A stretch of 64,000 nucleotides of DNA. Source: Inmirania thermothiophila (GTDB taxonomy: Bacteria; Pseudomonadota; Gammaproteobacteria; DSM-100275). Positions 41,955 through 46,383 of the stretch are shown here, piece by piece; positions within the stretch are counted from its first letter, which is position 1; each line of letters starts with the position of its first letter. The notes under the pieces are model-generated. The model did not search any database, was not told the origin of the DNA, and worked only from the letters and a program-made list of their open reading frames with translations. The stretch covers positions 386,000-449,999 of the forward strand of contig NZ_RJVI01000001.1 in the NCBI RefSeq assembly GCF_003751635.1, written 5' to 3'. Both the position numbers and the translations under genes were made by a program.

Positions 41955-41961
41955 TCGCGTG

Positions 41962-44475
41962 ATGAGAGAGGCGACCTCCAAGGCCCCCGACGAGACCCGC
42001 CTGGGCTTCCTGCTCACCCGACGCTTCGCCTTGTTCGCGCTGGCCGCGGCGCTGGCGGTCGGGGCCGGGCTCGCCGCCCTGTACCGTTTCTACGTCGTCG
42101 AGGCCCTGGTGTTGCAGGAGCGCCGCCACGCCGAGAGCCTCGCGCGCAGCCTGGTCTCCGTGCTGCACCACCACTACGACGGGCTGCTCGACGCCAGCGC
42201 CGCCATGACCGCGGTCGAGCTCGCCCGCCATCCCCTCCAGGAGGACCTGCGCGAGCTCCTCGAGGCCGCGGGCGGCGGGCGCGTGGTGCGCGCCAAGCTC
42301 TACGACGGGCAGGGGCGGACGGTGTTCTCGACCCGGCCCTACGAGGTGGGTGAGGACCAGGCGCGCAACCCGGGGGTGCGTTCCGCCCTCGGCGGGCAGG
42401 TGCACTGGGCCATCGAGCGGCGCGGCCACTTCAACGTCCACGACCGGGTGGTGGAGCAGCAGGACCTGCTCGAGACCTACGTGCCGGTGGCGGAGCGGGA
42501 CGATGGGGGGCGCGTCCACGGCGTGGTCGAGCTCTACACCGACATCGGCCCTCTCTTCGCCCAGGTGCGGCGGGTGCAGTGGGCCCTGGCGGCGGGGACG
42601 GCGCTGGCGCTGCTCCTGCTCTGGGCGGGGATCACGTGGTACGTGCGCCGCGGGGCGCTCGCGCTGGCGGCGCGGCTCGTCCGGCGCGAGACCCGGCTCG
42701 CCGAGGCCGAGGCGCGCATCGCGGGCCTCGAGGCCGACCTGGCGGCGGCGCGGGAGGAGGCGCGGCGGGCCGAGGGGGAGCGCCGGCGGGCGCTTCGCGA
42801 GCTCGAGTACGCCCGCATCGCCTTCGAGAAGACCAGCGAGGGGATCGTCGTCACCGACCGCACCGGCGCGATCCTCGCGGTCAACCCCGCGTTCACGCGG
42901 CTGACCGGCTACGCCCCCGAGGAGGTGATCGGCGAGAACACCCGCATCCTCTCCTCGGGCCGGCACGAGCCGGCCTTCTACGAGGCCATGTGGCGGGAGC
43001 TGGCCGAGCAGGGGCAGTGGCAGGGCGAGATCTGGAACCGGCGCAAGAGCGGCGAGTTCTATCCCGAGTGGCTCAACATCACCGCGGTGCGGGAGGCCGA
43101 CGGCGAGATCACGGGCTACATCGGCATCTTCTCCGACCTCAGCCGCGTCAAGGCGGCGGAGGAGCAGGCGGCCTACCTGGCCCAGCACGACCCGCTCACG
43201 GGGCTGCCCAACCGCGCCCTGCTGCGCGACCGCATCCAGCAGGCCCTGGCGCACGCCCGCCGCGCCGGGGAGCGGCTGGCGCTGCTGTTCGTGGACCTGG
43301 ACCGCTTCAAGGACATCAACGACACCCTCGGCCACGCCGCCGGCGACCTCGTCCTCAAGGCCGTGGCGCGCCGCTTCGCGCGCTGCATCCGCGCCGACGA
43401 CACCCTCGCCCGGCACGCCGGCGACACCTTCGCCGTGCTCGCCCGGGGCATCGACCAGGCCGACGACGCCGCGCGCCTCGCCCAGTGCCTGCTGGACGCC
43501 CTCGCCGAGCCGGTCACCGTCGAGGGGCGGCAGCTCTTCCTGCGGGCCAGCATCGGCATCGCCGTCGCGCCGGAGGACGCCGAGGACCCGGACTCGCTGC
43601 TGCAGCACGCCGATGCCGCCATGTACGAGGCCGCCTCCGCCGGCGGCGGCCGCTACCATTTCTTCGCCATCGCCCTCGAGGAGCAGGCGCGGCGGCGGCT
43701 GGACCTGGAGGGCGCGCTGCGCAAGGCCCTCGAGCGCGGGGAGCTGCTGCTGCACTACCAGCCGCAGGTGGACCTCTCCGACGGCGCCATCGTGGGCGCC
43801 GAGGCCCTGGTGCGCTGGCGCCACCCGGAGCGGGGCCTGATTCCGCCCGGGGAGTTCATCCCCGTGGCCGAGGAGAGCGGGCTCGTCGTGCCCCTGGGCG
43901 AATGGGTGCTGCGCGAGGCCTGCCGCCAGGCCTACCGCTGGCGCGTCGAGGGGCTGCCGCCGGTGCGGGTGGCGGTCAACCTCTCGGCGCGCCAGTTCGC
44001 GGCCGGCGACCTCGCCGAGCTGGTCGAGCGCATCCTCGACGAGACCGGGATGGAGCCGCACTACCTGGAGCTCGAGCTCACCGAGAGCGCGCTCATGGCC
44101 GACACCGACCGCGCCGCGCGCACCCTCGGGGCGCTGCGCGAGCTCGGCGTCCATGTCGCCGTCGACGACTTCGGCACCGGCTACTCCTCCATGGCCTATC
44201 TGCGCCGCTTCCCCCTGAGCGCGCTCAAGATCGACCAGGCCTTCGTGCGCGGCCTGCCGGGGAGCGAGGAGGATGCCGCCATCGTCGGCGCCACCGCGGC
44301 GCTGGCCCGCGCGCTGGGGCTGCGCACCGTCGCCGAGGGGGTCGCCACCAAGGCGCAGTGGCTCAAGCTGCTCCAGCTCCGTGTGGACGAGATCCAGGGC
44401 GAGCTCACCGGCTGGTCCGGACCGCCCGAGGAGCTGGCGCGGCGGCTGCGGGAGGGGCGGATCCTGCAGGCCTGA
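41962..44475 (+). CDS. Membrane PAS-GGDEF-EAL c-di-GMP signalling protein
   Basis: 837 residues. Two membrane helices (about 22-44 and 207-228) enclose a periplasmic sensor-like domain; then a coiled coil (about 235-275), a PAS domain (about 275-400), GGDEF (405-565) and EAL (580-830). The cyclase signature is degenerate: H485-AGDTF instead of GGDEF. The EAL domain retains E614-A-L, NLSARQF, ELTESAL, VDDFGTGYSS and the KID lysine, so c-di-GMP hydrolysis is likely and synthesis unlikely (inference). The C-terminal loop reads IQGELTGWSGPP, not the common QGYLFSRP. GTG 41959 is an alternative start. Confidence 0.92.
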   Translation: MREATSKAPDETRLGFLLTRRFALFALAAALAVGAGLAALYRFYVVEALVLQERRHAESLARSLVSVLHHHYDGLLDASAAMTAVELARHPLQEDLRELLEAAGGGRVVRAKLYDGQGRTVFSTRPYEVGEDQARNPGVRSALGGQVHWAIERRGHFNVHDRVVEQQDLLETYVPVAERDDGGRVHGVVELYTDIGPLFAQVRRVQWALAAGTALALLLLWAGITWYVRRGALALAARLVRRETRLAEAEARIAGLEADLAAAREEARRAEGERRRALRELEYARIAFEKTSEGIVVTDRTGAILAVNPAFTRLTGYAPEEVIGENTRILSSGRHEPAFYEAMWRELAEQGQWQGEIWNRRKSGEFYPEWLNITAVREADGEITGYIGIFSDLSRVKAAEEQAAYLAQHDPLTGLPNRALLRDRIQQALAHARRAGERLALLFVDLDRFKDINDTLGHAAGDLVLKAVARRFARCIRADDTLARHAGDTFAVLARGIDQADDAARLAQCLLDALAEPVTVEGRQLFLRASIGIAVAPEDAEDPDSLLQHADAAMYEAASAGGGRYHFFAIALEEQARRRLDLEGALRKALERGELLLHYQPQVDLSDGAIVGAEALVRWRHPERGLIPPGEFIPVAEESGLVVPLGEWVLREACRQAYRWRVEGLPPVRVAVNLSARQFAAGDLAELVERILDETGMEPHYLELELTESALMADTDRAARTLGALRELGVHVAVDDFGTGYSSMAYLRRFPLSALKIDQAFVRGLPGSEEDAAIVGATAALARALGLRTVAEGVATKAQWLKLLQLRVDEIQGELTGWSGPPEELARRLREGRILQA

Positions 44476-44547: not shown

Positions 44548-45066
44548 GTGACCAGGGAAGGTGCGGCAAGGGACCTGATCCGCTTCGCGCTGGCGGCGCT
44601 GGTGGCCGGCACGGTCGTTCTCGCCTTCCTCGCCGCCGCGGTGTGGCTGGCCGCGGCCGGCACCGCGGGCGGCTACGAGACCCTGGTGCGCGGCGCCCTT
44701 GCCCTGCGCCGCGGCCTCGATCTTGCGCTGCTGCTCGCGGCCGGGCTCGCGCTGGGACTCGGCGCCCTCGCCGCGGGGGCGGCGGCGCTCTACGCCTCCT
44801 TCCGCGTCGTCGGGCCGCTCTACCGCATCGCCCGTAATTTCGAGCGCCTGCTGGAGGCCGGCCCGGTGCCGCCGGTCCCGGTGCGCCGCGGCGACCGCCT
44901 GCGCCGGGAGGCGCGGCTGCTGGAGCGGGCCAGCGCCGCCCTTGAGGGCCACGCCGCGGCGGTGGCCGAGGAGGCGCGGCGGGCGCGCGAGGCCCTCGCC
45001 CGGGGTGAGGACGCCGGGCCCCGGATCGAGGCCCTGAGGGAGCTCGTCCGCCGTGTGGAGGTCTGA
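44548..45066 (+). CDS. Small membrane protein with HAMP-like segment
   Basis: 172 residues from GTG 44548 (GTG 44524 would add eight). Not recognised by name. Two long hydrophobic helices (about 12-38 and 57-84) are followed by a HAMP-like linker, RVVGPLYRIARNFERLLEAG, then a charged helix predicted coiled coil to the end. No periplasmic sensor of any size and no output domain (kinase, GGDEF, methyl-accepting) is attached. AGGGGGGAG lies 12 nt upstream of 44548. Its stop overlaps the start of the multihaem cytochrome gene, so the two are coupled. Confidence 0.75.
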   Translation: MTREGAARDLIRFALAALVAGTVVLAFLAAAVWLAAAGTAGGYETLVRGALALRRGLDLALLLAAGLALGLGALAAGAAALYASFRVVGPLYRIARNFERLLEAGPVPPVPVRRGDRLRREARLLERASAALEGHAAAVAEEARRAREALARGEDAGPRIEALRELVRRVEV

Positions 45067-45847
45067 GCGGCGGCCCGTGCCCCTGGTCTGGGCGGCGCCG
45101 GTGGTGCTGCTGGCGGCGGTGCTGCTGGCGTCGCGGCCCGAGGGCGCGGCGGCGCCGACCCACCCCGACACCGTGTGCGCGGGCTGCCACCTCGCCGGCC
45201 CGCGCACGCGTCCGGAGACGGCGCGCTTCCTCGTCGCCTCGGAGGAGCGGCTCTGCGGCGGTTGCCACGCCGCCGCCCTGCGCGCCAGCCATCCCACCGG
45301 GGTGCGCCCGGTGCGGCCGCTGCCGGCGGCCTATCCCACGGACTGGAAGGGGGAGCTGACCTGCAGCACCTGCCACGACGTGCACGCCGCGGGGCCGGGC
45401 AAGCTGCGCGGGGAGCGCCGCGGGCGCGGGTTCTGCCTCAGCTGCCACGAGCAGGCCTTCTTCGACGCGATGCCGGAGGGCGGCACGGCCCTCATGGTCT
45501 CGGGGCATCTGGCCGACGACGGCCCCCCCGCCGGGCGCATCGACCGCTACTCCGCGCAGTGCCTGGGCTGCCACGCGGACAAGCTCGGCCTGAAGGAGGT
45601 CCGGATCGACGTCCGCGGCGTCCTCCGCCATCCCGAGCGGGCCCTCAACCATCCCATCGGGGTGCGCTACGCCGACGCCGAGGCGTACGGCGGCTACCGC
45701 CCGGCGGCGCTGTTGCCGCGCGAGATGCTGCTCCCGGGCGGGCGCCTGAGCTGCCTCTCCTGCCATCGCGCCTACGAGGCCCGCCACGGCGCCCTCGTGC
45801 GGCGCTACGACAACGGGGAGCTCTGCTACCAGTGCCACGACCTGTGA
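45053..45847 (+). CDS. Seven-haem cytochrome c (doubled CXXCH type)
   Basis: 264 residues. An N-terminal hydrophobic segment (about 11-27) acts as signal peptide or anchor. Seven CXXCH haem sites begin at residues 42, 68, 104, 128, 170, 234 and 258. SHPTGV (79-84) and NHPIGV (199-204) resemble the distal-His motifs of doubled-CXXCH cytochromes. The spacing C104-C128 recurs as C234-C258, suggesting an internal duplication in which the second half lost one haem. Periplasmic electron carrier; partner unknown. GTG 45053 overlaps the preceding gene and the TGA overlaps the next. Confidence 0.88.
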   Translation: MWRSERRPVPLVWAAPVVLLAAVLLASRPEGAAAPTHPDTVCAGCHLAGPRTRPETARFLVASEERLCGGCHAAALRASHPTGVRPVRPLPAAYPTDWKGELTCSTCHDVHAAGPGKLRGERRGRGFCLSCHEQAFFDAMPEGGTALMVSGHLADDGPPAGRIDRYSAQCLGCHADKLGLKEVRIDVRGVLRHPERALNHPIGVRYADAEAYGGYRPAALLPREMLLPGGRLSCLSCHRAYEARHGALVRRYDNGELCYQCHDL

Positions 45848-46383
45848 CGACCCCGGCAGGCGCGGAGCGGCGTCGGCGGCGCTACCTCGGCGTCGCCCTG
45901 CAGCGGCGGCTGATCCTCGTCCTGGCGGCGCTCGAGGCGGTCCTCGTGGCGGCCTTCCTGCTGTGGCTTCGCGCCCGCCTGGGCGGGCTCGCCGAGGCGC
46001 TGGCCTTCCGCGCCCACCCGCCTCCGGGACCGGTGGCGCCCCTGTTCCTGGCCGAGATCGCCCGTGCGGCGGCGGGGTTCGTGGCCGCCAACGCCGCGGT
46101 CCTCCTCGCCGCCGCCGCGGTCTGGGAGCGGCGCGTCGCGGCCCTGCGCCGCCCGCTGTGCCGGCTGCTCGCGGCGGCGGGCGATCTCGACCTGCGGCCG
46201 CGCCCGGCCGGTGGCGGGCACGAGGCGCTGGAGCTGGCGCAGGTGTGGCTCGCCGCCGAGCGGGCCCGGCACCGCCGCGTGCGCGAGCTGGTCGCGGGCC
46301 TCGCCGGTGCCGGCGCGGAGGACTGCGCGCGGCGCCTCGCCGAGATCGAGGCCCGGGTGCAGGGGCCGCCGCGCTCCGGCTAG
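45844..46383 (+). CDS. Second small membrane protein of the multihaem cassette
   Basis: 179 residues, not recognised by name. Arg-rich N-terminus, then two hydrophobic helices (about 18-40 and 64-90), a HAMP-like segment (RRPLCRLLAAAGDLDLRP) and a charged, probably helical tail. Layout parallels the gene at 44548, so the cytochrome is bracketed by two similar membrane proteins. GTG 45844 overlaps the cytochrome stop. Its TAG interlocks with the TAG of the convergent pyrK-like gene (shared CTAG at 46380-46383). Confidence 0.72.
   Translation: MTTPAGAERRRRRYLGVALQRRLILVLAALEAVLVAAFLLWLRARLGGLAEALAFRAHPPPGPVAPLFLAEIARAAAGFVAANAAVLLAAAAVWERRVAALRRPLCRLLAAAGDLDLRPRPAGGGHEALELAQVWLAAERARHRRVRELVAGLAGAGAEDCARRLAEIEARVQGPPRSG

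Follow-up and report, generated by a model that had tools for sequence, protein, structure and literature searches.

In the NrfH-NrfA complex, a haem of one subunit takes a ligand from its partner subunit (PMC8840924), and a two-TM haem-c sensor with a HAMP domain has been characterised (PMC12889525). The cassette analysed here, which lies in a window of 64,000 nucleotides of the Inmirania thermothiophila genome, would resemble NrfH-NrfA as a membrane-held multihaem complex with the inter-subunit haem ligation proposed below, but, unlike NrfH, itself a NapC-type haem protein, its membrane subunits carry no haem and end in HAMP-like tails. With the sCache_heme (DUF3365/Tll0287) sensors it would share a c-type haem in the periplasm that acts on a HAMP domain in the cytoplasm; those sensors, however, bear a mono-haem Cache domain in the same chain, whereas the cassette has a separate multihaem cytochrome and no Cache domain. 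As in methyl-accepting chemoreceptors and HAMP receptors (PF00672), a TM2-HAMP region is recognisable by profile, yet the cassette membrane proteins have no periplasmic sensor domain, kinase, MCP or GGDEF output. The cytochrome falls with DmsE/MtrA and GSU2203-type decahaem cytochromes in the doubled-CXXCH superfamily, but has seven haems in an apparent 4+3 arrangement, scores far under their cut-offs and is accompanied by HAMP-like partners instead of a porin. Among OmcE-type filament cytochromes (PDB 7tfs, which we take to be OmcE, and 9yuq), 9yuq has an HPIGxxY region in common with its C-terminal domain, but the cytochrome is not OmcE-like over its full length. The earlier note on this DNA knew of no described system of this composition, and none turned up in Pfam, in NCBIfam or in the non-subscription literature searched on HAMP domains with multihaem or c-type cytochromes; a literature search on TorC-TorS, a possible precedent, gave nothing useful. 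The recurrence of the trio in distant bacterial phyla, and a histidine of one partner that looks placed to grip a haem, suggest that it is a redox relay or sensor of the inner membrane not described before.

The cassette encodes, in order, a membrane protein (MEM1), a cytochrome with seven CXXCH motifs (CYT7) and a second membrane protein (MEM2), joined head-to-tail by overlaps of 14 nt (MEM1/CYT7) and 4 nt (CYT7/MEM2). The three open reading frames and the make-up read from them by the earlier note are borne out, as is the membrane PAS-GGDEF-EAL protein that it placed immediately upstream, which is recognised by Pfam and whose gene ends ~70 nt before MEM1. The features are as follows:

41959..44475, + strand: PAS-GGDEF(AGDTF)-EAL membrane protein, a neighbour only, not a conserved part of the cassette
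44548..45066, + strand: MEM1 (P0001), 172 aa, two-TM, with a HAMP-like cytoplasmic tail carrying the GP...R...R..D signature
45053..45847, + strand: CYT7 (P0002), 264 aa, predicted exported, seven-haem c-type cytochrome
45844..46383, + strand: MEM2 (P0003), 179 aa, two-TM, with a HAMP-like tail
46015..46017, + strand: MEM2 His58 codon, invariant periplasmic-loop histidine and candidate inter-subunit haem ligand

MEM1 starts with GTG, with AGGGGGGAG ~13 nt 5' of the start, and a promoter scan found no sigma-70-like site. Its hydrophobic segments span residues 14-32 and 59-77, and MEM2 likewise has two. Downstream lie convergent pyrimidine-pathway genes, read from their translations alone. In the upstream PAS-GGDEF-EAL protein the EAL motifs are intact and the GGDEF site is degenerate, reading AGDTF; this protein is probably a phosphodiesterase only.

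Homology searches revealed that the complete trio, in the same order, is present in nine genomes: the window's (G000) and eight others, among them MAGs of Acidobacteriota, Nitrospirota and 'Deltaproteobacteria'. Neighbouring genes of the trio either overlap at their start and stop codons or are a short distance apart. The CYT7 search led to an Acidobacteriota MAG (L023) with the same gene order, the cytochrome being flanked by two small membrane proteins. Among 369 genomes of the same class as the window's, presumably Gammaproteobacteria, two further complete cassettes came to light (G153, G066), and a search of the order of G153 yielded a genome with all three genes (G395). With the MEM1 profile, one Nitrospirae MAG (G414) and a pair of Deltaproteobacteria MAGs (G411, G409) proved to hold complete cassettes, and G412, G410, G136 and G008 reduced ones; the MEM2 profile added a complete cassette in G440, a near relative of G409 and G411. 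The order-level search was empty, the window's genome being the sole member of its order among the genomes searched. With nine complete cassettes, we rejected a chance association of neighbouring genes, and the earlier note's concern that the trio might not be conserved together is answered by the same gene order in eight other genomes. Mean identity between complete cassettes is low (26% for MEM1, 38% for the cytochrome, 23% for MEM2), and the identity matrices of the three proteins correlate (r = 0.97-0.98). Among the 369 same-class genomes, only five match the MEM2 profile at E<1e-40, all of them cytochrome-linked, and the next match is at 4e-17, a gap that is partly by construction as those five copies were part of the profile. 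No other genome in that sample of 369 holds a comparable copy. The cassette is a rare but sharply defined module.

The co-occurrence that the earlier note proposed to look for holds for the trio as a cassette, with the qualification that the three genes are not always all present. In G136 and G008 a four-haem cytochrome is paired with a single membrane protein. In G412 and at one G410 locus a four-haem-type cytochrome lies between two membrane proteins in reversed order, two of the four haem motifs being degenerate in the latter, and another G410 locus pairs one membrane protein with a ten-haem protein. In G371, from the order of G153, the cytochrome has neither membrane gene beside it.

CYT7, a single-copy protein in the window's genome, has an N-terminal signal/anchor segment (residues 9-27) and exactly seven CXXCH sites (CAGCH, CGGCH, CSTCH, CLSCH, CLGCH, CLSCH and CYQCH). 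It matches Pfam Paired_CXXCH_1 (PF09699; E=2.2e-17, 62.9 bits against a gathering score of 20.6), which marks it by sequence as a member of the doubled-CXXCH superfamily. It falls below the DmsE/MtrA cut-off (TIGR03508, 47.4 bits versus 192) and has seven CXXCH motifs, not ten; the cassette proteins have no Pfam match to NapC/NrfH, and reach 16.9 bits in TIGR03153 against a cut-off of 134. Since the four-haem proteins of reduced cassettes align with its N-terminal half, and three-haem proteins found elsewhere (G121, G125, G092) with its C-terminal half, CYT7 looks like a 4+3 fusion. The N-terminal domain holds haems 1-4 and candidate distal histidines at 37, 80 and 111. In the C-terminal domain, three haem motifs are accompanied by two candidate distal histidines (152 in 9/10 sequences and 200 in 10/10). 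In 14/14 cytochromes, the histidines of the four haem sites in the four-haem domain are matched by no more than three further invariant ones, the same 37, 80 and 111. The AlphaFold model of CYT7 (pLDDT 35.5, with three sequences allowed) was useless for haem pairing.

The profiles of MEM1, MEM2 and a set of stand-alone proteins of ~180 aa are related (hhalign 99.5%), identifying MEM1 and MEM2, at the sequence level, as paralogues from a wider short TM-TM-HAMP-like family. The stand-alone members (L089-L112) are widespread and have no cytochrome neighbour, sensor or output domain. As the earlier note had claimed for the two cassette proteins, neither has a sensor or output domain in Pfam: MEM1 (172 aa) and MEM2 (179 aa) lack an MCP cytoplasmic signalling domain, show no sCache_heme/DUF3365 match and no CXXCH, and have no Pfam or NCBIfam match of note. 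Its description of their tails as HAMP-like stands at the level of the family profile and not for each protein of the window alone, neither of which matches Pfam HAMP (PF00672) singly. That model is matched by 8/18 stand-alone relatives and 2/13 MEM2-type copies (best 7.6e-7), and the MEM2 profile finds the TM2-HAMP region of chemoreceptors, Af1503 and the sensory rhodopsin (SRII) transducer in the PDB (E=5e-8), and it also picks out, in many long receptors, stretches of the size of a TM2-HAMP unit; used alone, the MEM1 profile retrieved no HAMP structure in the PDB profile search. HAMP relatedness is thus seen only at the family or profile level, where TM2 is followed by a two-helix HAMP with a conserved proline and an acidic residue. 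The residues invariant in the ten cassette MEM1 proteins (G89, P90, R93, R113 and D116) all fall in the HAMP-like part. The possibility that these are truncated chemoreceptors, or that their homologues are always full-length chemoreceptors, was rejected, cassette homologues being always two-TM proteins of ~170-220 aa.

Alignment of the first 13 cytochrome-linked MEM2-type copies identified only two invariant residues, Gln20, which is common among stand-alone relatives, and His58. The latter position is occupied by histidine in 14/14 cytochrome-linked MEM2-type copies, not all of them independent (G409, G411 and G440 are close), versus 0/10 MEM1 and 0/18 stand-alone relatives; G440, which was found after the pattern had been seen, carries the histidine too. 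In cassettes with two membrane proteins exactly one partner has it, and at loci with one partner that partner does. In the moderate AlphaFold model of MEM2 (66), residue 58 lies in a turn between helices 4-55 and 64-111; a fold search with this model against the PDB returned nothing significant. Positive-inside charges place the loop bearing His58 in the periplasm, the side on which c-type cytochromes mature. We propose that His58 is the missing fourth haem ligand of the four-haem domain, because in every minimal form three invariant other histidines plus one MEM2 histidine equal the four haems. Counting histidines is no proof of ligation, but it yields a specific prediction, which hangs on one residue. 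Against it, the missing ligand could be a methionine, a non-conserved histidine, water or nothing, and the C-terminal domain is also one conserved distal histidine short, so that a haem left open does not require MEM2 to complete it.

The reading we favour, tentatively and at a little under an even chance, is that MEM2 His58 contacts or ligates one of the N-terminal domain's haems within a membrane complex whose HAMP bundle feels the state of that haem. It builds on conservation, paralogy, HAMP relatedness, histidine invariance and the haem and histidine counts, from which we infer complex formation, haem ligation and signal output. The three genes would form one inner-membrane complex, the diverged paralogues MEM1 and MEM2 (TM-loop-TM-HAMP) assembling into a (hetero)dimeric helical bundle on whose periplasmic tip the exported multihaem cytochrome would dock. 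The hairpin-tip histidine of MEM2 would be the distal ligand of a haem of the four-haem domain, or contact it directly, and reduction, oxidation or a ligand change at that haem would alter the bundle and, beneath it, the HAMP domains. The cytochrome would be a sensor supplied in trans, its haem chain also able to pass electrons. The cytoplasmic output partner would lie outside the cassette and differ between hosts, the upstream EAL phosphodiesterase being one candidate here. The earlier suggestion that the cytochrome is held between two membrane partners is plausible, and the MEM2 histidine lends it specific support.

The stronger form of this proposal, a split receptor in which two HAMP membrane proteins use a separate multihaem cytochrome through an inter-subunit histidine-haem bond and electron flow drives HAMP signalling, we consider rather doubtful. 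Against the favoured complex itself, no output partner is conserved, nearby signalling genes are not enriched, seven haems exceed the need of a sensor and G371 has the cytochrome without adjoining membrane genes. The electron chain in the periplasm of cells that respire on minerals, sulfur or electrodes has a redox state that these cells must sense. Physical contact between a multihaem cytochrome and a HAMP bundle would, if true, give them a concrete means to do this, and would add to the known membrane complexes in which a haem of one protein is ligated by another.

To characterise the genomic context of the module, we compared the 6 kb range around 14 cassette-type loci with 40 control regions of the same genomes. 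Nearly as likely as the favoured complex is a plain anchored electron relay, in which the MEM pair would be a membrane platform with HAMP as dimeriser, and the cytochrome, at the periplasmic face, would accept electrons from a carrier such as quinol and hand them on to cytochromes in the periplasm or outside the cell; the MEM2 histidine would still be a haem ligand or docking residue. Seven haems suit transfer, the lack of an output domain agrees with this reading, and other multihaem genes are enriched within 6 kb (5 versus 0.9 expected, p=0.003). All of these come from G066, G407 and G410, however, and 11/14 loci have no other multihaem gene in that range. In G066 and G407 the cassette lies in a run of NHL, beta-barrel-like, multihaem and OmcE-like filament cytochrome genes, and in G136 and G008 the four-haem form comes after beta-barrel-like genes. 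A bare anchor, on the other hand, would not need the HAMP signature residues that are invariant in MEM1, and no invariant acidic or lysine residue of the kind expected at a quinol site is found in the membrane segments of MEM1 or MEM2.

A redox input to c-di-GMP signalling, with the cassette reporting to the adjacent PAS-GGDEF-EAL protein as the earlier note had suggested, is improbable. In its favour, the cassette of the window directly follows the PAS-GGDEF-EAL gene, the gene run of the G136 cassette starts with a dCache-PAS-GGDEF-EAL gene, an HD-type gene adjoins MEM2 in G412 and a GAF-GGDEF gene lies near one G410 cassette. Within 6 kb, c-di-GMP enzymes are in excess (6 versus ~2.2 expected, p=0.024) in a test that was post hoc and on a small sample. 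Yet a GGDEF-EAL gene is near only 2/14 loci (G000, G136) and so is neither always adjacent nor a fixed partner; four more loci have other c-di-GMP-type enzymes (GGDEF or HD-type), and G008, laid out like G136, has a chemoreceptor-hemerythrin gene instead. Signalling genes overall are not enriched near cassettes (14 observed versus 11.5 expected, p=0.27), in a test made conservative by control contigs some of which were chosen for HAMP matches. Because no single neighbouring partner is constant, the cassette looks self-contained.

Very improbable is a role of the MEM proteins as chaperones or assembly factors for haem loading or export outside the working complex, for although both are small and their reading frames overlap that of a multihaem protein, and maturation factors such as CcmE are known to place a histidine close to haem, their HAMP relatedness, the host's other multihaem cytochromes without such partners and the G371 cytochrome without MEM genes all speak against it.

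Several further arrangements were seen around these loci. The G008 cassette run (L061 552-4949) is headed by a chemoreceptor with a C-terminal hemerythrin domain, followed by the beta-barrel-like gene, the four-haem cytochrome and the histidine-bearing membrane protein, and the reversed G412 cassette (L134 2523-10354) follows an RR-GAF-HD gene and directly precedes a type II secretion/pilin-like operon. G000 (C2:1040000-1049000), G153 and partly G092 have in common a conserved island (L083/L073, L056, L060) encoding a TlpA-like protein, membrane sensor, PAS kinase, sigma-54 regulator, Sel1 protein, cytochrome c and two propeller proteins; in G153 this TlpA-like/PAS kinase/sigma-54 regulator island runs straight into the cassette. 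The window's genome also harbors OmcE-like filament-type cytochrome genes (L073 at C2:1052000-1063000, L075, L076), which include a cluster of the kind seen around the G066 and G407 cassettes, one of these genes being near genes for a PPIase, a beta-barrel-like protein and an 11-haem protein, likely constituting an extracellular electron transfer cluster. Clusters encoding a 24-haem protein (L058, L059 and L039, the L039 copy being cut off and showing 17 CXXCH) are a repeated feature of several gammaproteobacteria-like genomes, where they also hold an NHL protein, three-, seven- and eight-haem cytochromes and a cytochrome-b-like membrane protein.
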